From Pseudomonadota bacterium (GTDB lineage Bacteria; Pseudomonadota; Alphaproteobacteria; Rhizobiales; JAKPQE01), in the NCBI GenBank assembly GCA_029572955.1, contig JAKPQE010000055.1, forward strand, positions 1 to 37,166: DNA of 37,166 nucleotides. Reading direction: 5' to 3'. A program made the position numbers and the translations under genes. Each line of letters starts with the position of its first letter. Position 1 is the first letter of the stretch. The notes below the pieces were generated by a model. The model was not told the DNA's origin. It searched no databases and saw only the letters and a list, made by a program, of their open reading frames with translations. Positions 15,544 to 27,785 of this stretch are shown piece after piece.

Positions 15544-16136
15544 CCGTCCCCGAAACCGCCATTGCCGCCGACGGACTCGACCTGCATCAGGCGCTTTTCA
15601 GGCGCCTGATGCGGGCCGCCCGCGGCGGTCTCAACGAGGTCTTCGTCGGCCAGATGCTGGCGAGCTGGATGGCCGGGCGCGGCGTCCTGCCGGCGAGGAT
15701 GGGGCTCGACGAGGCGCGGTTTCGGGAGATGATCGACTGGCATTTCCCGGGTCTGTCCGGTGCCGGGGAGATTCGCGAAGGCGAAGCGGTCGACGGACGC
15801 TTCGAGGAACTCGACGATGTCCGCGGCCTTCTTCTGCAGCACCGGGCCCAGCGCTCGCGATCGGAGATCTGGGTGGCCGACATCGTTGCCGTCGGCTGCA
15901 TGGGCAGCGACCATCTCTGGTCGGATCTCGGGCTGTTTTCGCGCGCCGACCTCAGCGCCCTGATGGCGCTCAATTTCCCGACGCTGGCCGCCGCCAACGA
16001 CCGCAACATGAAATGGAAGCGGTTCATCTACAAACAGCTCTGCGAGGCCGAGGGCATGCGCGCCTGCCGGGCGCCGAGCTGCGAGGTCTGTGCCGATTAT
16101 CGCGACTGCTTCATGCCGGCCGAGGCCGAGCGCTGA
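15540..16136 (+). CDS. nifQ: NifQ, molybdenum donor for FeMo-cofactor synthesis
   Basis: This 198-residue protein ends with the NifQ cysteine motif Cys176-x4-Cys181-x2-Cys184-x5-Cys190 (CRAPSCEVCADYRDC), which holds the Mo-Fe-S cluster. DHLWSDLGLFSRADLSALM and FPTLAAANDRNMKWKRFIYKQLCE are also family-like. The start is a GTG at 15540 that overlaps the preceding stop as GTGA, so translation is probably coupled. NifQ passes Mo to NifEN/NifH during cofactor maturation. Its last 40 bases overlap the end of apbE on the other strand, so the two operons collide tail to tail. Confidence 0.95.
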   Translation: MTVPETAIAADGLDLHQALFRRLMRAARGGLNEVFVGQMLASWMAGRGVLPARMGLDEARFREMIDWHFPGLSGAGEIREGEAVDGRFEELDDVRGLLLQHRAQRSRSEIWVADIVAVGCMGSDHLWSDLGLFSRADLSALMALNFPTLAAANDRNMKWKRFIYKQLCEAEGMRACRAPSCEVCADYRDCFMPAEAER

Positions 16137-17209
16137 GGCGCCGCCGCGCCGCCGGCCAGAGAGGCGTCCGGCACGACGATCCGGTGTTCCCGGCCATCCT
16201 CTATTCTCAGCCGCGCCCGCATGTCCGGCGTCATGTAGAACGTGCCGTCGCCATCGACCAGAACCGCGTAGCGCAGGCCCATCCCCGCCGCGACGGCCGG
16301 CCATTCGGCCGGGCCGGCGACCGACAGCGCGGTCGCCGCGGCATCGGCGAGCGCGCCGTCCTCGGCGATAACGCTGGCCGAGACGATGTCGCGCACCGGC
16401 CGGCCGGTCCGCGCATCGAGGATGTGGGAATAGACGACGCCTTCGTGTTCGAGGAAGCGGTTGTAGTTGCCCGAGGTGTGCAGCGCCTCGCCCGGCGCGA
16501 GCTCGACCGAGGCGATGACGCCCCAGCCGCGCGGGTCGCGGATCGCGACGCGCCAGGGGCGGTTGCCGTGGCGGCCGATCACCTTGACGCCGCCGCCGGC
16601 GTTGAGGACGGCATCGGCGATGCCGGCGGCCTCGAGTTGCGTGGCCGCCCAGTCCAGTGCCGCGCCCTTGGCAAAGCCGCCGAAATCGAGGCGGACGGCG
16701 GCATTGCGCGACGATACGGTGGCGCCGTCGATGTCGATGTCGGCCATCGTGGGCGCCCTCGCGACCCAGGCGGCGATCGCCGTGGCGGCGGGTGGCGCGC
16801 CGTGCGGCAGGTCGTCGGCATGGAAACCCCAGAGACCGACGAGGCCGCCGATCGCCGGGTTGAAGAGGCCGCCGCTGCGTTCTTCGAAATCCTTCGCCTG
16901 GCGTATGGCGCCAAGCAGCAGCGGCGAGACGGCCATCGCCCGGCCGCCGGCGAAGGCCGCGTTGAGATCGCCGAGCTCGCCCGGTTTCCAGGCGTGCCAG
17001 TCGCGATGCATGCGGGAAAAGCCGGCGGCGATCTTCTCGAGCGCCGGCTCGGCCTTCTGCCGGTCGTGTTCGGCGACGACGATCTCGGTCAGCGTGCCGA
17101 AGACGTAGAGCGTGGTGCGATAGTCCGCGTCCTCGCGGTCGCAGCCGGCGAGAACGGCGGCGAGGGCCACCGTGAGGACGGCAAGAGAGGCGGGCCGGCG
17201 CGCCGTCAT
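16097..17209 (-). CDS. apbE: ApbE-family FAD:protein FMN transferase (lipoprotein)
   Basis: This 370-residue protein has a lipoprotein signal, LAVLTVALAAVLAGC, with Cys23 in the lipobox LAGC, so it is exported and membrane-anchored. ApbE motifs are LDFGGFAKGAALD (about 174-186), LNAGGGVKVIG (202-212), HTSGNYNRF (244-252), HILDARTGRPV (262-272) and ADAAATALSV (288-297). It attaches FMN from FAD to Thr/Ser residues, and RnfG and RnfD in this window are natural targets. Its ATG overlaps the rseC stop by four bases. It ends inside the nifQ reading frame on the opposite strand. It is the last gene of the SIR2-like operon. Confidence 0.94.
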   Translation of the reverse strand: MTARRPASLAVLTVALAAVLAGCDREDADYRTTLYVFGTLTEIVVAEHDRQKAEPALEKIAAGFSRMHRDWHAWKPGELGDLNAAFAGGRAMAVSPLLLGAIRQAKDFEERSGGLFNPAIGGLVGLWGFHADDLPHGAPPAATAIAAWVARAPTMADIDIDGATVSSRNAAVRLDFGGFAKGAALDWAATQLEAAGIADAVLNAGGGVKVIGRHGNRPWRVAIRDPRGWGVIASVELAPGEALHTSGNYNRFLEHEGVVYSHILDARTGRPVRDIVSASVIAEDGALADAAATALSVAGPAEWPAVAAGMGLRYAVLVDGDGTFYMTPDMRARLRIEDGREHRIVVPDASLAGGAAAPQRSASAGMKQSR

Positions 17210-17679
17210 CCGTCGCAGGCCGGAGGCGGCGCCTCGAGCAGCACCGGATCGAGCGCCGGCCCGCTGCCGAGGTGGCGGGCCGCGAGATAGCCGAGACCGA
17301 GGCCGGAAAGGGCGGCAAGGCCGACGCCCGCTTCGGCGGTGCCGAGGGCCGCGGCGGCGGCCGCCGCACCCACCATGGCGACGACGGGGACGAGATAGGC
17401 AAGGGCCGCCGCGGCGACGATGGCGCCCTCGCCGATGCCGATGCGCACCCGGCTGCCGACCGGCAGGTCGAGATCGGTGGCGATCCGTATCGGCGCGGCG
17501 TCGGTGCCGAAAAGCCGGGTGAGCGCGGCCGTGCCGCAGCTCGCCGCGACGCCGCAGCTCGCGCAGCCGGCGGTCCGCTGCGGGGCGAGGACGAGGATGC
17601 GCCCGTCGCGGCCGATGACGGTCGCCTCGGCGGCAACGAGGCCGGCGGCGGGATCGAACAGGTCGGGGCTCTCGATCAC
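17206..17679 (-). CDS. rseC: RseC/MucC-like membrane protein
   Basis: This 157-residue protein has an N-terminal cytoplasmic part with Cys39, Cys42 and Cys48 (CASCGVAASC), then two adjacent membrane helices (about residues 88-112 and 119-136, Ala/Val/Leu-rich), as in RseC/MucC. In enterics rseC is tied to the Rsx (Rnf-like) system that re-reduces SoxR, and RseC-type proteins often sit near rnf or apbE. The start is a GTG at 17679 overlapping the hemerythrin stop (GTGA). It may help Rnf assembly or redox tuning, which is inference from neighbourhood and family. Confidence 0.82.
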   Translation of the reverse strand: MIESPDLFDPAAGLVAAEATVIGRDGRILVLAPQRTAGCASCGVAASCGTAALTRLFGTDAAPIRIATDLDLPVGSRVRIGIGEGAIVAAAALAYLVPVVAMVGAAAAAAALGTAEAGVGLAALSGLGLGYLAARHLGSGPALDPVLLEAPPPACDG

Positions 17680-18330: not shown

Positions 18331-19185
18331 TCAGGCGGCAGCCGAGACGCCGCTGGCGGCGCCGAGGAATCCCGCCAGCGACATGCGGATGATCTCGACA
18401 CGCTTCTTTTGCAGGAACCGCGCTTCCTTCTCGGTCGGCTCCTCGATCACCGCCCAGCCGGCCGGCTCGGCGGCGTCGTGGATGATGTCCGACATCACCA
18501 TGCGTTCGGTGTCGCGGTTGAAGCGCATGCCGAGGAAGAGGTAGCGCTTGCCGATGCGCCGCGCCTTGAGGAAGGCGGGAATGCCGAAGCCGCCCATCAG
18601 TTCGGTGATGTAGTCGACATAGTCGGCGTCCGAGGCGATGAACACCGGCTCGGGGATCGGCGAGCCGGCCGGCTTGAAAAGGATCGGCAGGTCGGGGTTC
18701 GCCTCGTCGAGGCTGACGCCGCGATAGCCGGTGCCGTCGTGCTGCGACAGCACGAAGCGGTAGTCGGTGCCGCCGATCCGGGCGATGCCGCGCACCACGA
18801 GATGCGGCGTCGCGGCGAAGCCGTCCTGCAGCTGGGTGTCGCGATTGATGTCGACGACATAGGGCGGCCGGATGGCGGCGAGCCAGTCGTGCAGCGGCGC
18901 GCGGGTCCAGCGCGTCTCGCCATAGGTGCGCATGAGGAACTGCTCGATGAACCGCCGGCCGCGCTTCAGCTCGAGATTCATGGCGGCGCGCGGGAACTCG
19001 AACATCAGCTTCGGCGCCATCGGCCGGCCGCCGTTCATGGCGAGGATCAGGCTGTCGCTGTCGGCGGGGATCGGCGCGCCGGTCGCTGCCTCGACGGCGC
19101 CGGCAAGGGCGCCGGGCCCGAGATAGGGAACGACATCGCCGCTGCGGATATCGGCGACGATGGCTTCGATGTCGGTTCGTTGCAT
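18331..19185 (-). CDS. SIR2-like (SIR2_2-type) protein, nif-associated
   Basis: This 284-residue protein has a SIR2-like nucleotide-binding start, SGDVVPYLGPGALAG (about 15-29), comparable to the VVPFxGAGxS motif of SIR2-like NADases and deacetylases, with Pro-Gly in place of Ala-Gly. Other notable stretches are YVVDINRDTQLQDGF, GTDYRFVLSQHDGTGYRGVS, and ITELMGGFGIPAFLKARRIGKRYLFLGMRF, which is typical of SIR2_2 C-termini. No zinc-binding cysteine pairs are visible. Whether it cleaves NAD, deacylates or only binds a nucleotide is unknown. It is the first gene of the operon, with the sigma54 promoter at 19231-19245, back to back with nifH. The ATG at 19185 gives the conserved N-terminus. Confidence 0.75.
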   Translation of the reverse strand: MQRTDIEAIVADIRSGDVVPYLGPGALAGAVEAATGAPIPADSDSLILAMNGGRPMAPKLMFEFPRAAMNLELKRGRRFIEQFLMRTYGETRWTRAPLHDWLAAIRPPYVVDINRDTQLQDGFAATPHLVVRGIARIGGTDYRFVLSQHDGTGYRGVSLDEANPDLPILFKPAGSPIPEPVFIASDADYVDYITELMGGFGIPAFLKARRIGKRYLFLGMRFNRDTERMVMSDIIHDAAEPAGWAVIEEPTEKEARFLQKKRVEIIRMSLAGFLGAASGVSAAA

Positions 19186-19230
19186 GTCGATTTGCGCTCG
19201 CTTCTGGCGGTTTCGTCGCCAAGGCGCGTT

Positions 19231-19245
19231 GCAAGAAGCAAACCA
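19231..19245 (-). promoter_or_regulatory. Sigma54 promoter of the SIR2-like/hemerythrin/apbE operon
   Basis: The minus-strand sequence TGGTTTGCTTCTTGC has GG-N10-GC and a good TTGC -12 half, but TTT instead of CAC after the GG. It lies 46 bases before the SIR2-like ATG, the same geometry as the rnfA promoter. It is less consensus-like than the others. Confidence 0.65.
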
Positions 19246-19290
19246 TCCGGGGATTTCGATCAAGTAGCGGTAATTGCGGGATTTTTTTGA

Positions 19291-20484
<1,194 letters not shown>

Positions 20485-20512
20485 TCACTTGGACGAGGAC
20501 AATGGGGCAGGT

Positions 20513-20541
20513 CCCGAGAGGGCCTTCGCCCCGGCCTCGGG
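20513..20541 (+). other. Stem-loop between nifH and nifD
   Basis: CCCGAG and CTCGGG arms, with GGCC/GGCC pairs inside and a small bulge, form a stem in the 74-base nifH-nifD gap. There is no T-run. It could slow exonucleases and raise the nifH:nifDK mRNA ratio, which is inference. Confidence 0.45.
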
Positions 20542-20558
20542 CGAATTGGGGAAAGCCG

Positions 20559-22031
20559 ATGTCGACCATGACCAAACAGGAAACCGAGGCCCTCATCCAG
20601 GAGGTTCTCGAAGTCTATCCGGAGAAGGCCAGGAAGGACCGCGCCAAGCATCTGACGGCCAACGACCAGTCGCTCGAGAAGTCGAGCAAGTGCATCACCT
20701 CGAACCGCAAGTCGCTGCCGGGCGTGATGACCATTCGCGGCTGCGCCTATGCCGGCTCGCGCGGCGTGGTGTGGGGTCCGGTCAAGGACATGATCCACAT
20801 TTCGCACGGTCCCGTCGGCTGCGGCCAGTATTCGCGCGCCGGACGGCGCAATTATTACGTCGGTACCACCGGCGTGAACACTTTCACGACGATGAACTTC
20901 ACCTCCGACTTCCAGGAGCGTGACATCGTTTTCGGCGGCGACAAGAAGCTCGACAAGATCATCGACGAGATCGAGATGCTGTTCCCGCTGAACAAGGGCA
21001 TCACCGTCCAGTCCGAATGCCCGATCGGCCTCATCGGCGACGATATCGAGGCGGTGTCGAAGAAGAAGGCGCAGGACCTCGACAAGACCATCGTGCCGGT
21101 GCGCTGCGAGGGCTTCCGCGGCGTGTCGCAGTCGCTCGGTCACCACATCGCCAACGACGCGATCCGTGACTGGGTGTTCTCGCGCGCCGAAGGCAAGGAA
21201 TTCGAGTCGACCCCTTACGACGTCACCGTCATCGGCGACTACAACATCGGCGGCGACGCCTGGTCGTCGCGCATCCTGCTCGAGGAAATGGGCCTCCGGG
21301 TCATCGCCCAGTGGTCCGGCGACGGCACCCTCGCCGAGATGGAGAACACCCCGAAGGCCAAGCTCAACCTTCTGCACTGCTACCGCTCGATGAACTACAT
21401 CTCGCGCCACATGGAAGAGAAGTACGGTATTCCCTGGATGGAATACAATTTCTTCGGTCCGACCAAGATCGAAGAGGCGCTGCGCAAGATCGCCGAGCGT
21501 TTCGACGACAAGATCAAGGAAGGCGCCGAGCGCGTCATCGCCAAGTACAAGCCGGAATGGCAAGCGGTCGTTGCCAAGTATCGTCCGCGTCTCGAGGGCA
21601 AGCGGGTGATGCTCTATGTCGGCGGCCTGCGGCCTCGTCACATCATCGGCGCCTACGAGGATCTCGGCATGGAGGTCGTCGGCACCGGCTACGAATTTGG
21701 CCACAATGACGATTACGACCGCACGATCAAGGAAATGGGCGACGCGACGCTCATCTACGACGACGTCACCGGCTACGAGTTCGAAGAATTCGTCAAGAAG
21801 GTCAAGCCCGACCTCATCGGCTCCGGCATCAAGGAGAAGTACATCTTCCAGAAGATGGGCATTCCCTTCCGCCAGATGCACAGCTGGGACTATTCGGGCC
21901 CGTATCACGGCTATGACGGCTTCGCGATCTTCGCGCGCGACATGGACATGACGCTCAACAACCCCTGCTGGGACAGCATCACGCCGCCCTGGAAGAAGTC
22001 GGGTTCGGCCATGTCGGTCGCGGCCGAGTAA
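20559..22031 (+). CDS. nifD: NifD, nitrogenase MoFe protein alpha subunit
   Basis: This 490-residue subunit has P-cluster ligands Cys62 (RGCAYAG), Cys88 (GPVGCGQYS) and Cys154 ([12 protein letters not shown]). The FeMo-cofactor ligand Cys274 lies in [10 protein letters not shown], and the His ligand in the [15 protein letters not shown] stretch near the C-terminus. His195 in SLGHHIAND is the substrate-channel histidine. Length and motifs are those of the Mo enzyme (no V- or Fe-only features). ATGs at 20559 and 20568 are both possible; the first is spaced better from GGGGAAAG. It pairs with nifK 63 bases downstream. Confidence 0.99.
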
Positions 22032-22094: not shown

Positions 22095-23666
22095 ATGAGT
22101 CAGACTATCGAGAAGATCAAGCCGAGCTATCCGCTGTTCCGCGACGAGGACTACAAGGAGTCGCTGACGAACAAGCAGTTGATGTTCGAGGAAAAGGTGG
22201 ACCAGGCGAAGATCGACGAGGTCTTCGAATGGACGACCAGCGTCGAATACAAGGACCTCAACTTCTCCCGCGAGGCGTTGACGATCAACCCGGCCAAGGC
22301 CTGCCAGCCGCTCGGCGCGGTGCTGTGCTCGCTCGGCTTCGAGAACACGCTGCCCTACGTGCACGGCAGCCAGGGCTGCGTCGCCTATTTCCGCACCTAC
22401 TTCAACCGTCACTTCAAGGAGCCGATCGCCTGCGTCTCGGACTCCATGATCGAGGATGCGGCGGTGTTCGGCGGCCAGAAGAACATGTTCGACGGCCTCG
22501 CCAACGCCAAGGCGCTCTACAAGCCGGACATGATCATGGTGTCGACCACCTGCATGGCCGAGGTCATCGGTGACGATCTCAACGCCTTCATCGGCAATGC
22601 CAAGAAGGAAGGCCATATCGAGCAGGACCTCCCGGTGCCGTTCGCCCACACGCCGAGCTTCGTCGGCTCGCACACCACCGGCTGGGACAACATGTTCGAG
22701 GGCGTCATCCGCTACTTCACCCTCAACACGATGGAAGGCAAGGAAGTCGGCTCGAACGGCAAGATCAACATCGTGCCGGGCTTCGAGACCTATCTCGGCA
22801 ACTATCGCGTCATGCACCGCTACATGCAGGAGATGGGCGTTTCCTACTCGCTGCTCTGCGATCCCTCCGAGGTGCTCGACACGCCGGCCGACGGCAAGTA
22901 CCGGATGTATGCCGGCGGCACGACGCAGGCCGAGGTCAAGGACGCGCCGAACGCCGTCGACACGCTGCTGCTGCAGCCCTGGCAACTCGTCAAGACGCGC
23001 AAGTTCGTCGAGGCGACCTGGAAGCATTCGACGCCGAACATCGATATCCCGATGGGCCTCGGATGGACCGATGCGTTCCTGATGAAGGTTTCCGAGATCA
23101 CGGGCAAGGAGATCCCGGCCTCGATCGAGAAGGAGCGCGGTCGCCTCGTCGACATGATGACCGACAGCCACGCCTGGCTGCACGGCAAGAAATACGCGCT
23201 CTGGGGCGATGCCGACTATCTGCTCGGCATGGTCAAGTTCCTGCTCGAGCTCGGTGCCGAGCCGCGCCACATCGTCTGCCACCACGCCAACAAGCGCTGG
23301 AAGAAGGCGATGGAGAAGCTGCTCTCCGAAAGTCCCTACGGCAAGGATTGTGAAGTCCATGTCGGCGCCGACCTGTGGCACATGCGCTCGCTGGTCTTCA
23401 CCGACAAGCCGGACTTCATGATCGGCAATTCCTACGGCAAGTTCATCGAGCGCGACACCAAGTACAAGGGTGACGAATTCCAGGTTCCGTTGATCCGGAT
23501 CGGCTTCCCGATCTTCGATCGTCATCACCTGCACCGCCAGACGACGCTCGGCTACGAGGGCGCGATGAACATCCTGACGACGCTCGTCAATGCGGTTCTC
23601 GAGCAGCTCGACAAGGAAACGATGGGCATGGGGACGACCGACTACAACTACGATCTCGTCCGCTAA
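22095..23666 (+). CDS. nifK: NifK, nitrogenase MoFe protein beta subunit
   Basis: This 523-residue subunit has P-cluster ligands Cys70 (NPAKACQPLGA), Cys95 (GSQGCVAYFRT) and Cys153 (TTCMAEVIGDD). The N-terminal extension QTIEKIKPSYPLFRDEDYKE is the long type of group I MoFe proteins, and the end GTTDYNYDLVR is the usual one. AAGGAGGA precedes the ATG. With NifD it forms the alpha2beta2 enzyme that reduces N2. A GC-rich hairpin follows before nifT. Confidence 0.99.
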   Translation: MSQTIEKIKPSYPLFRDEDYKESLTNKQLMFEEKVDQAKIDEVFEWTTSVEYKDLNFSREALTINPAKACQPLGAVLCSLGFENTLPYVHGSQGCVAYFRTYFNRHFKEPIACVSDSMIEDAAVFGGQKNMFDGLANAKALYKPDMIMVSTTCMAEVIGDDLNAFIGNAKKEGHIEQDLPVPFAHTPSFVGSHTTGWDNMFEGVIRYFTLNTMEGKEVGSNGKINIVPGFETYLGNYRVMHRYMQEMGVSYSLLCDPSEVLDTPADGKYRMYAGGTTQAEVKDAPNAVDTLLLQPWQLVKTRKFVEATWKHSTPNIDIPMGLGWTDAFLMKVSEITGKEIPASIEKERGRLVDMMTDSHAWLHGKKYALWGDADYLLGMVKFLLELGAEPRHIVCHHANKRWKKAMEKLLSESPYGKDCEVHVGADLWHMRSLVFTDKPDFMIGNSYGKFIERDTKYKGDEFQVPLIRIGFPIFDRHHLHRQTTLGYEGAMNILTTLVNAVLEQLDKETMGMGTTDYNYDLVR

Positions 23667-24002: not shown

Positions 24003-24200
24003 ATGGCCATGAAGATCGTCGCCTCGATCTGCACGTCCTGCGGGGACTGCGAACCGGAATGCCCGACGAGCGCCATCCATCCGTTCAAGGGCGTCTATGC
24101 CATCGATGCCGGCAAGTGCACCGAATGCGACGGCGAGCACGACAATCCGCGCTGCCTCGAGCTGTGCATGGAAGACGGCTGCATCGTGGCGGCCGCCTGA
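24003..24200 (+). CDS. nif-associated 2[4Fe-4S] ferredoxin
   Basis: This 65-residue ferredoxin has motif one CTSCGDCEPECPTSAI and motif two CTECDGEHDNPRCLELC, with an eight-residue loop after the second Cys. The final cysteine is followed by Met, not Pro, and an additional Cys lies at EDGC. Similar small ferredoxins occur beside nifT or nifY in other nif clusters and may feed electrons to nitrogenase or to cofactor synthesis. It is distinct from FdxN and FdxB in this window. A 101-base gap to nifY shows nothing notable. Confidence 0.9.
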   Translation: MAMKIVASICTSCGDCEPECPTSAIHPFKGVYAIDAGKCTECDGEHDNPRCLELCMEDGCIVAAA

Positions 24201-24301
24201 GCCGACGACGCGACGGGGCGAGGGGCGGGCCCGCCGCCTCTCGCCGCGACGATGATGCCCGTGTCGCCACCGGCGCGCGGGCCGACGACGAGCGGAGATG
24301 G

Positions 24302-25009
24302 ATGATGAGCGGATCGGATCTCAGCCGCGAGCTCGCCTTGCGGATCGGCCTTGCGGCGCGGACACTGCCCGGTATCGAGGCGGGGGCGCTCGTCGGCATG
24401 CTGGTCGATGCGGTCGGCGTGCCGTTGACCGAGGAAAAGCTCGCCGGCCTCGGCATGAAGGCCTTCCGTCAGGCGGGCGGCGAGGCGCTGCTCGCCATTC
24501 CGATCGACACCGTCAAGGCGGCGCTGAAGCTGCTGAAGGGCGAGGAGATGCCGGCGCCGGCCGAATTGCCCCGGCCTGAGGCCTATGCCGAAGGCGACAT
24601 GCCGGCTTCGATCCGCGTCGCCTGCGCCTCCAATCGCGACGAGGACCTCGACGGCCATTTCGGCTCCTGTGCGCGCTTCCTCGTCTATCAGGTCTCGGCG
24701 AGCGAGGCCCGGCTGATCGACGTGCGCGCGACCGAGGCGCCGGCGGGCGTCGACGACAAGAACGTCTGGCGCACCGGCCTCGTCGCCGATTGTCAGGTGC
24801 TCAACGTCGTCTCGATCGGCGGACCGGCGGCGGCCAAGGTGGTGCGCGCCAACGTCCATCCGGTCAAGCATGCCGAGGGCCGCAAGGCGCGCGAGGTCGT
24901 CGCCGAGCTGCAGCAGGTGCTCGCCGGCTCGCCGCCGCCCTGGCTGGCGCGGGTCATGGGGGTGCCGGCCGGCACCCTCGAGCCGTTCATGCCGGAGGCC
25001 GAACAGTGA
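24302..25009 (+). CDS. nifY: NifY / NafY-like dinitrogenase-cofactor carrier
   Basis: This protein of about 235 residues has two domains. The N-terminal helical domain (about 5-75, LSRELALRIGLAARTLPGIE) is the apo-dinitrogenase-binding type seen in NifY/NafY. The C-terminal NifX-like domain (about 100-220) has CASNRDEDLDGHFGSCARFLVYQV and LNVVSIGGPAAAKVV. Such proteins hold FeMo-co or steady apo-MoFe protein until the cofactor is inserted. ATGs at 24302 and 24305 are both possible after GGAG at 24294. The downstream gene starts by GTGA overlap with its stop. Confidence 0.88.
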   Translation: MMSGSDLSRELALRIGLAARTLPGIEAGALVGMLVDAVGVPLTEEKLAGLGMKAFRQAGGEALLAIPIDTVKAALKLLKGEEMPAPAELPRPEAYAEGDMPASIRVACASNRDEDLDGHFGSCARFLVYQVSASEARLIDVRATEAPAGVDDKNVWRTGLVADCQVLNVVSIGGPAAAKVVRANVHPVKHAEGRKAREVVAELQQVLAGSPPPWLARVMGVPAGTLEPFMPEAEQ

Positions 25010-25286: not shown

Positions 25287-26237
25287 ATGATCGAAGCCGT
25301 CCTCAACGAAATCCATCTCGACAAGGCCTGCGGCGAGGCGGCACCGGCGGCCGATCACGCGGCTCTCCTTGCGGCTGTGCGCGAACTGCTGCCCGAGCTG
25401 CCGTTCCGCCACGCCCTGACGCGATCCGGCTGGCACCGGATCGGCGGCGTCGTCACCGCCGATCTCGGCCGCGTCGCGACCAATCTGCGCCAGTGGGCCG
25501 AGACCGAATCCGACCACGACATGTTCGCGCTCTACGAGGACTACGCCGACAGCGGCTATCTGACGACACGGTTCGACGGCCGGACCCACTATTTCGTGGC
25601 GCCGACCGGCACGCGCGCGCCCGACTTCTTCCAGCTCGAGGTCGAGGAGCTGGTCGAGGTCGTCGACCGGCCGCTGTTCGTCGACGATGAGATGCCCGAC
25701 GACATCGAGGAATTCCTCGATCCGCCGGGGGCGATCGAGGCGCGGGTCGAGCCGCAGGCGCTCGCCGCGCCGCGCTACATCTATCGCGCCATCACCGATA
25801 TCGACGATCTCGTTGCCGACCAGGTGACGTCGGAAGGATCGGATCTTCGATACATCCGCTTCCTGGAGGAGTGGGATCGCTCCAGCGCCGGCGGGCGGGA
25901 GCGGTTCTGCGACCATTTCGTGCTGCGCCTCCTGCCGTTCCGCGATCGCTTCGGCGAGCACAAGATCGAGGCGACGCCGCTGCCGATCGACCCGCTGCCG
26001 GCCGCCGACCCGGCTGCCGCGGCGATGAGCGGGGCAGCGCTCGCCAACTATCTGCAGGCCTATGACGGCGCAGCCGGCTTCCCGATGGCGTGGTACTTCG
26101 CCATGCTCATCCGCAAGAAGGCGATGGCCGACATCGCCCAGTCGGTCTGGCTCGACTATGGCCGCAACTACCGCTATCTGCCGGAGCGCGACCTGCCAAT
26201 CCTCAAGGGCTGGATCAAGAAGCCCTACAGCTTCTGA
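25287..26237 (+). CDS. Uncharacterised nif-operon protein, 316 residues
   Basis: I do not recognise a named family. The protein is acidic and soluble. Visible blocks are RHALTRSGWHRIGGVVTADLG, a middle part rich in Glu/Asp (LEVEELVEVVDRPLFVDDEM), APRYIYRAITDIDDLVADQV, and a conserved-looking end WYFAMLIRKKAMADIAQSVW then DYGRNYRYLPERDLPILKGW. No signal, membrane helix or metal motif is clear. It ends the nifHDKT-fdx-nifY transcript. The ATG at 25287 has AAGG upstream; a GTG at 25266 that overlaps the previous stop (GTGA) is a serious alternative and would add seven residues. The nif promoter for nifE begins just after it. Confidence 0.75.
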   Translation: MIEAVLNEIHLDKACGEAAPAADHAALLAAVRELLPELPFRHALTRSGWHRIGGVVTADLGRVATNLRQWAETESDHDMFALYEDYADSGYLTTRFDGRTHYFVAPTGTRAPDFFQLEVEELVEVVDRPLFVDDEMPDDIEEFLDPPGAIEARVEPQALAAPRYIYRAITDIDDLVADQVTSEGSDLRYIRFLEEWDRSSAGGRERFCDHFVLRLLPFRDRFGEHKIEATPLPIDPLPAADPAAAAMSGAALANYLQAYDGAAGFPMAWYFAMLIRKKAMADIAQSVWLDYGRNYRYLPERDLPILKGWIKKPYSF

Positions 26238-26268: not shown

Positions 26269-26284
26269 TGTCGGGTTTACGACA
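26269..26284. promoter_or_regulatory. NifA upstream activator site (nifE)
   Basis: TGTCGGGTTTACGACA fits TGT-N10-ACA. It is only about 45 bases before the nifE -24 element, closer than usual. Confidence 0.75.
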
Positions 26285-26328: not shown

Positions 26329-26343
26329 TGGCACAGGGCTTGC
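26329..26343 (+). promoter_or_regulatory. Sigma54 promoter of nifENX
   Basis: TGGCACAGGGCTTGC is a near-consensus -24/-12 element, 41 bases before the nifE ATG. Confidence 0.92.
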
Positions 26344-26384: not shown

Positions 26385-27785
26385 ATGAAGCCGAAGGACA
26401 TCGCGGAACTCCTCGACGAGCCCGCCTGCGAGCACAACACCAAATCGAAGTCCGGCTGTGCCCGACCGAAGCCGGGCGCGGCGGCCGGCGGCTGCTGCTT
26501 CGACGGGGCGCAGATCGCGCTCCTGCCGATCGCCGACGTCGCCCATGTGGTGCACGGCTCGATCGCCTGCGCCGGCAGCTCGTGGGACAATCGCGGTTCC
26601 AGGTCCTCCGGCCCGAAGCTCTACAAGCGCGGCCTGACCACCGACCTCACCGAGCAGGACGTCATCATGGGCCGCGGCGAGAAGCGGCTTTTCCATTCGA
26701 TCAAGCAGGCGATCGACAGCCATGCGCCCGAGGCCGTGTTCGTCTACAACACCTGCGTGCCGGCGCTGGTCGGCGACGACATCGAGGCGGTCTGCAAGGC
26801 GGCCGCGGCACGCTGGGGCGTGCCGGTAGTGCCGGTCGATGCCGCCGGCTTCTACGGCACCAAGAACCTCGGCAACCGCATCGCCGGCGAGGCGATGGTC
26901 AAATACGTGATCGGCACGCGCGAGCCCGATCCGGTGCCGGCGCATCTGCAACGCGACGGCATCACCGTTCACGACATCGCGCTGATCGGCGAATACAACA
27001 TCGCCGGCGAGCTCTGGCATGTCCTGCCGCTGTTCGACGAACTCGGCCTTCGCGTCCTCGGCTCGCTCTCGGGCGACGCCCGCTTCCGCGAGGTGCAGAC
27101 CATGCACCGGGCGCAAGTCAACATGATGGTGTGCTCGAAGGCGATGATCAACGTCGCCCGCAAGCTTCGCGAAAGCTACGGCACGCCCTGGTTCGAGGGC
27201 TCGTTCTACGGCGTACGCGACATGGGCCAGGCGCTGCGCGACTTCGCCCGGCTGATCGACGATCCGTCCCTGACAAGGCGCACCGAGGCGCTGATCGAGC
27301 GCGAAGAGGCCCGCATCCACACCGCGCTCGCGCCCTGGCGGGCCCGCCTCGAAGGCAGGAAGGCGCTGCTCTATACCGGCGGCGTCAAGGCCTGGTCGAT
27401 CGTCTCGGCCCTGCAGGACCTCGGCATGGAGGTGGTCGCCACCTCGACGCGCAAGTCGACCGAGGACGACAAGGCCAAGATCCGCGAGCTGATGGGCGAC
27501 AAGACGCGCATGCTCGACGAGAGCCAGGGGCCGCGGGCGCTGATCGACATGGTGCACGAGACCGGCACCGACGTGCTGATCGCCGGCGGGCGCAACATGT
27601 ACACCTCGCTGAAGGCCCGCATTCCCTTCCTGCACATCAATCAGGAACGCGAGCATGCCTATGCCGGCTACGAGGGCATGATCACCTTCGCCCGCCAGCT
27701 CGCCCAGACCATCGAGAGCCCGGTCTGGAAAGCGGTTCGCACCCCGGCGCCATGGGACATGGCGCTCGGCGTCGCCGCGGAGTGA
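26385..27785 (+). CDS. nifE: NifE, FeMo-cofactor scaffold alpha-like subunit
   Basis: This 466-residue homologue of NifD forms NifEN, on which NifB-co matures with Mo and homocitrate. Cluster ligands Cys37, Cys62 and Cys124 are at the positions known for the Azotobacter O-cluster (GGCCFDG, IACAG, NTCV). [21 protein letters not shown] and [16 protein letters not shown] are standard NifE. The ATG at 26385 keeps these positions. nifN follows by five bases. Confidence 0.98.

Follow-up and report, generated by a model that had tools for sequence, protein, structure and literature searches.

Gene X, an unnamed gene at the end of a nifHDK gene run, marks one nif lineage and has plasmid-borne relatives

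Gene X lies directly before nifE in the 37,166-nucleotide stretch of alphaproteobacterial DNA analysed here (the window), and it marks one nif lineage. Two further points are new: the other branch of its family is borne on plasmids, and X occurs with a second nif type. What might such a protein do? Our first choice, a tentative one, is an accessory factor that makes or sustains Mo-nitrogenase by binding an assembly intermediate and raising the yield or stability of active enzyme. An effect of X on nitrogenase, of whatever kind, seems quite likely to us, as a judgement and not a result. Accessory nif genes bear on the transfer of nitrogenase into new hosts, and X is a candidate missing part: a family-level unknown that one proteobacterial nif type has retained and that a second also has.

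The gene and its operon

The X protein has a mass of 35.6 kDa and a pI of 4.7, and is probably soluble; its gene is the single copy found in the window genome. GC by codon position is 0.71/0.44/0.88, and dN/dS is 0.05–0.09 in five close homologue pairs (two of these with dS of about 1.5) and 0.29 between the window and locus L005. Codon-position GC and dN/dS together indicate a protein under purifying selection and, with the open frame, they bear out the preliminary description, made from the sequence alone, of a full-size, real gene. That description had also pointed to a conserved C-terminal block, taken there as a sign of an enzyme or assembly factor, in which W269, F271, L298, W309 and Y314 are indeed kept in at least 90% of both family branches. 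No Cys is conserved across the family in the alignment columns of a 49-protein set.

The gene run on the plus strand reads nifH, nifD, nifK, nifT-like, ferredoxin-like, nifY-type, DUF6129 and X, followed by nifE (Table 1), with 17 nt between the DUF6129 ORF and the start of X. The nifY-type gene probably starts later than listed, since the ORF as called overlaps the ferredoxin-like ORF; we take its pair of domains, DIMCO_N and Nitro_FeMo-Co, to warrant the NifY/NafY label. Between 23500 and 26500, neither terminator-like sites on the plus strand nor sigma-70 promoters were found. TGT-N10-ACA sites number nine in the window against 1.5 expected. The NifA-like and -24/-12 sites 5' of nifH presumably form the promoter of the operon that ends in X. 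With no plus-strand terminator-like site found in that interval, and with NifA/sigma-54 sites between X and nifE, the simplest reading makes X the final gene of the nifH operon, much as first described; on position and on the NifA/sigma-54 consensus sites 5' of that operon, X would belong to the nif regulon. Its position between nifY and nifE also stands, but the first reading passed over the DUF6129 ORF that separates X from the nifY-type gene.

Table 1. Features of the window discussed in the text
Feature	Position	Strand	Remarks
rnfA and rnfC	5.3-7.9 kb	-	
ApbE flavinyltransferase and RseC/MucC genes	16097-17209 and 17206-17679	-	adjoining
Gene with C-terminal SIR2-like domain	18331-19425	-	PF13289, E 4e-9; divergent from nifH, at the pnfA place
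NifA-like site upstream of nifH	19380..19395	+	
-24/-12 site upstream of nifH	19505..19519	+	one mismatch
nifH	19609..20433	+	TIGR01287, 476.7 bits
nifD	20481..22031	+	Pfam; start provisional
nifK	22095..23666	+	Oxidored_nitro, DUF3364 (Pfam)
nifT-like ORF, 70 aa	23762..23974	+	likened to nifT by eye
Small 4Fe-4S ferredoxin-like ORF	24003..24200	+	two Cys-rich motifs, read from sequence
nifY-type gene	24059..25009	+	DIMCO_N and Nitro_FeMo-Co; below NCBIfam nifX cut-off
DUF6129 small protein, 87 aa	25006..25269	+	Pfam PF19624, E 2.4e-8; GTG start overlaps nifY-type stop
X, 316-aa protein	25287..26237	+	uninterrupted from ATG to TGA; the nifE promoter comes next
NifA upstream activator-like site, TGT-N10-ACA	26269..26284	+	just 3' of X, before nifE
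Sigma-54 -24/-12 consensus for nifE	26329..26343	+	exact match
nifE	about 26385 to 27785	+	Pfam; start by eye

Pfam, NCBIfam and PHROGs hold no family match to the window protein. When 21 family members were compared with Pfam, NCBIfam and PADLOC, each collection gave a single stray match (E 0.086, 0.082 and 0.012), to one member apiece. PDB sequences gave chance matches only, with the single protein and with two profiles; two scans of viral contigs found no relative of X, nor did a search of phages with a Rhodanobacter homologue as query. An AF2 prediction from only four sequences has a mean pLDDT of 36.9 and a pTM of 0.25. No description of the family was noticed in the open-licence literature. 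As far as sequence comparison reaches, the X family is unnamed and X has no known catalytic motif.

Carriers, nif lineages and Rnf

Genome samples were drawn from the window's order (249 genomes; alphaproteobacterial, including Rhodobium and Cohaesibacter), from the order of genome G840 (150; Burkholderiales by inference, containing G548) and from the class of G840 (350; GTDB Gammaproteobacteria, which include Burkholderiales). Twelve of the 249 match X: ten close carriers (at least 55% identity), G101 (37%) and G077, whose copy is of the plasmid type. NifH above the curated cut-off is present in 40 of these 249 genomes, including all ten close carriers; G101 and G077 are without it. The order of G840 has seven matches in 150, the plasmid-type G548 and six of the nif type; NifH is found in 21 of the 150, and the six nif-type carriers are the six top NifH scores. 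The class sample has 12 matches in 350, namely G840, G548 and ten more that are all NifH-positive. The notion of X as an oddity of one alphaproteobacterial order is ruled out by its presence in the class of G840. X is nonetheless rare overall, judging from one match in a class-wide alphaproteobacterial sample of 289 (the window genome alone) and four matches to the family in a phylum sample of 398, two of these (G077 and G548) being of the plasmid type. Over all samples the nif branch is nearly confined to diazotrophs: 26 of its 27 carrier genomes have NifH, the exception being G101, which is also without NifDK. Two outcomes had been named beforehand as counting against a nif gene, membership of a known non-nif family and occurrence chiefly outside diazotrophs; neither holds for the nif branch.

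Does X follow diazotrophy as such, or one kind of nif cluster? The preliminary description had proposed a phylogenetic profile against nif types. The 61 NifH-positive genomes of the two orders split into 17 that are window-like (NifH at least 87% identical to that of the window) and 44 others (NifH at most 80%, and NifK at most 55% where seen). In 16 of the 17 the stretch compared contains nifK (at least 72%), DUF6129 and a nifY-type gene, and each of these genomes has X; in the 17th, G014, the nif genes are on a broken, 3,776-base contig and X was not found in the genome. Genome-wide searches found X in none of the 44. X lies beyond the 9.5 kb comparison stretch in four of the G840-order carriers, where genome-wide search and locus analysis located it. 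Since the clusters are related, the 16 of 17 should be counted as a single well-kept association, not as 17 separate events. Distances between X proteins agree with those between NifD (Spearman 0.70) and NifK (0.60) proteins over 23 of the 26 full-length nif-branch proteins, those with NifK and NifD at hand, with 0 of 999 permutations as high, although such agreement is expected from shared descent alone.

All ten alphaproteobacterial carriers show the order nifK, nifY-type, DUF6129, X, nifE. X adjoins nif genes in nine of the ten further carriers from the 350-genome sample, five of the nine reading nifY-type, DUF6129, LRV, X, nifE, and it is linked to nif genes in all six carriers of the order of G840; at loci L031 and L056 it directly follows or overlaps the LRV 4Fe-4S gene. 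Taken together, X sits in nif clusters in 25 of 26 NifH-positive carriers, while gene order varies. DUF6129, a term absent from the open-licence literature searched, appears to be another uncharacterised marker of this lineage: the window ORF has a match in each of the 16 X-carrying clusters of the two orders but in 0 of the 44 other nif stretches (none longer than 9.5 kb). Methylococcus sp. EFPC2 has a DUF6129 match at 40%.

EFPC2 carries its nif genes on a plasmid, and its NifK is 51% identical to that of the window. Its X lies 2.6 kb from the rnf operon and about 17 kb from nifH. The nif cluster of genome G1133 is similarly divergent (NifK 51% identical to the window's), and its X, 75% identical to that of EFPC2, is far from nifH and near no nif gene. 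The G1133 copy comes after genes for an FAD oxidoreductase, an ABC ATPase and a DUF364 protein (L142, 5092-9394, plus strand), relatives of which are spread over the EFPC2 nif plasmid; the four might form an accessory operon. Occurrence with this divergent nif type indicates that X is not tied to one nif cluster. In the family tree the EFPC2 and G1133 proteins group with X of G1241 (100/99), a genome whose NifK is 80% identical to the window's. As they group with the window lineage despite 51% NifK, the histories of X and the nif core differ there: either X moved to another cluster on one or more occasions, or it stayed while the nif core around it was replaced.

Could X act with the Rnf complex in electron supply or oxygen protection, and not in cluster assembly? 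The rnf neighbourhoods in EFPC2 and G101 make this the main rival, unlikely on balance but still a contender. Rnf in related nif clusters is thought to send electrons towards nitrogenase (PMC3916325). In G101, where rnf is present and NifH and NifDK are absent, the X homologue stands beside the rnf operon (L025), perhaps as a remnant of a lost nif–rnf cluster or perhaps with an Rnf role of its own. The window too has rnfA and rnfC, and on the same strand, between nifA and nifH, are the ApbE flavinyltransferase and RseC/MucC genes. Against an Rnf function, X keeps its place between DUF6129 and nifE in all ten alphaproteobacterial carriers, RnfA/RnfC were not found in 17–20 kb around X at 12 loci (L019-L024, L031, L056-L060), nor RnfA at ten others (L142-L151), and the family has no conserved Cys.

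The plasmid branch of the family

The preliminary description recognised no family, and no named family has been matched; the lack of relatives that it implied does not hold, as an unnamed family exists with its other branch on plasmids. A Rhodanobacter plasmid homologue used as query matches 149 of 72,556 plasmid records, 99 of them typed conjugative and mainly from Burkholderia and Bradyrhizobium; window X as query matches two. An unrooted tree of 49 proteins, computed with insert columns omitted, divides 22 plasmid-type from 27 nif/rnf rows (100/100). G1157, cut by a contig end, was left out, and in the tree and distance test L003 and L004 stand for G238 and G148, L003 being a nearly identical separate record to G238. 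The best tree does not unite the nif rows minus G101 in one clade, although a single clade is not rejected (AU p 0.19), nor does the tree resolve the deep forks within the nif branch.

Two traits part the branches with no exception in these 49 rows. The span from Y164 to R191 is 24–29 residues long in the 27 rows of the nif branch and 63–79 in the 22 plasmid rows, so that the nif branch is without a segment of roughly 35–50 residues. The His of a His-Gly pair after the AWYF block is present in 22 of 22 plasmid rows and 0 of 27 nif-branch rows; this pair reads as the most enzyme-like invariant of the plasmid-branch C-terminal block. We infer that the direction was from plasmid to nif, because the plasmid form is more widely spread.

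Twenty-four annotated plasmid loci were chosen from the match lists for variety. Toxin–antitoxin and integrase genes are frequent on plasmids, and the following are raw counts: a toxin, antitoxin or AbiEii gene immediately precedes the X-like gene in seven loci (L041-L044, L046, L062, L063; with a gap in L064) and is divergent from it in three (L061, L067, L068), and an integrase gene comes just after the X-like gene in four (L045, L046, L063, L068). No nif genes were seen in the annotated plasmid loci. The copy in G077 also follows relatives of AbiE-like genes. L042, L043, L044, L062 and L026, from alphaproteobacterial plasmids and G077, share a recurrent array of a DUF6088 protein (which we take to be AbiEi-like), an AbiEii toxin and the X-type protein, which might be a third component of an AbiE system.

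Such neighbours raise the prospect that X has retained whatever the plasmid family does, perhaps something linked to stability or to toxin–antitoxin action, and stabilises the nif island or its expression without acting on nitrogenase. This we consider rather improbable, as the nif branch has neither the His-Gly found in every plasmid member nor the longer segment, and no toxin–antitoxin family scores above cut-off among the window proteins scanned (part of the window genes), where a ModC-like protein touches AAA_21 below cut-off.

Proposed role and comparison with known systems

On the maturation reading, X would be a nif accessory protein, acidic and co-encoded with the subunits of the MoFe protein. 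Its most likely source is the plasmid-borne family, with the nif form missing the segment and His-Gly. X may bind apo-NifDK, NifEN or the neighbouring NifY, DUF6129 or LRV factors, and so raise the yield or stability of active Mo-nitrogenase as a non-catalytic part. Its absence from most nif clusters sampled suggests an enhancer and not an essential step. Conserved Cys residues and the His-Gly are missing, the protein is acidic and hydrophilic, and its gene lies among those for NifY-type, DUF6129 and LRV proteins; these features fit a binding partner of a nitrogenase intermediate better than an enzyme.

Several lines favour this maturation role: the split of carriers by nif lineage, the NifH of nearly all nif-type carriers, a gene order shared by genomes of the window's order and several from the class of G840, occurrence with the EFPC2 and G1133 nif type, the distance agreement, the NifY-type and LRV iron–sulphur proteins as neighbours, and low dN/dS. 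Other observations weigh against it. The distance agreement follows from shared descent and the lineage split is that of one group of related clusters; X is beside rnf in G101, by rnf in EFPC2 and away from nif in G1133.

Is X simply a passenger, an old plasmid gene that the ancestor of one nif lineage picked up and passed on to its descendants? Descent alone would give strict one-lineage linkage, but the low dN/dS of close pairs, the retention of X while its surroundings rearranged and its presence with another nif type make this improbable. A fuller account, unlikely to hold in all its parts, is that a nif lineage captured a conjugative-plasmid protein, which lost the segment and His-Gly and became a maturation or maintenance factor that also serves another nif type, one carried on a nif plasmid. 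The plasmid-branch protein, for its part, would be the third component of a toxin–antitoxin operon, with a related binding or chaperone role.

How does X compare with known nif proteins? In the transcriptome of Pseudomonas stutzeri A1501, nifY, PST1331, a leucine-rich repeat gene and nifE are consecutive and induced under nitrogen fixation, and the published table gives only PST1331 and the leucine-rich repeat gene between nifY and nifE (PMC2820453). By that table the strain may lack X unless PST1331 is X, a point against the maturation reading. The same paper describes PnfA (PST1325) as a nif-linked unknown protein, divergent from nifH and reported only from diazotrophs (PMC2820453); in print PnfA has been called partly UspA/ETF-like. 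That X is PnfA is very improbable: both are nif-linked unknown proteins of about 300 residues from the same kind of nif island (PMC2820453), but by position, which is the comparison made, PnfA differs in place and strand, the window has the separate SIR2-like gene at the pnfA place, and X profiles match neither that gene nor any other window ORF beyond chance (best other E 0.62). A SIR2 protein is also encoded on the EFPC2 nif plasmid.

The LRV 4Fe-4S protein of nif clusters is near X in seven of the ten loci L142-L151 and in L031, L056 and L057, and was not found in the window or in L019-L024; X differs from it in having no Pfam LRV match and no conserved Cys. The cofactor carriers NifY/NafY and NifX share the operon and are candidate partners, but X is without DIMCO_N or Nitro_FeMo-Co by Pfam, and absence of the latter rules out X as NifX or NifY. 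X also resembles the unnamed plasmid family, with members such as WP_235642690.1 (Rhodanobacter plasmid) and WP_011695147.1 (plasmid of Burkholderia cenocepacia HI2424). These differ from X in their longer Y164–R191 span, invariant His-Gly and annotated loci free of nif genes, yet they share full-length homology and invariant residues, both branches keeping 16 columns at a conservation of at least 90%. X links unknowns of the nif accessory set with unknowns of the plasmid backbone, and work on either can inform the other.
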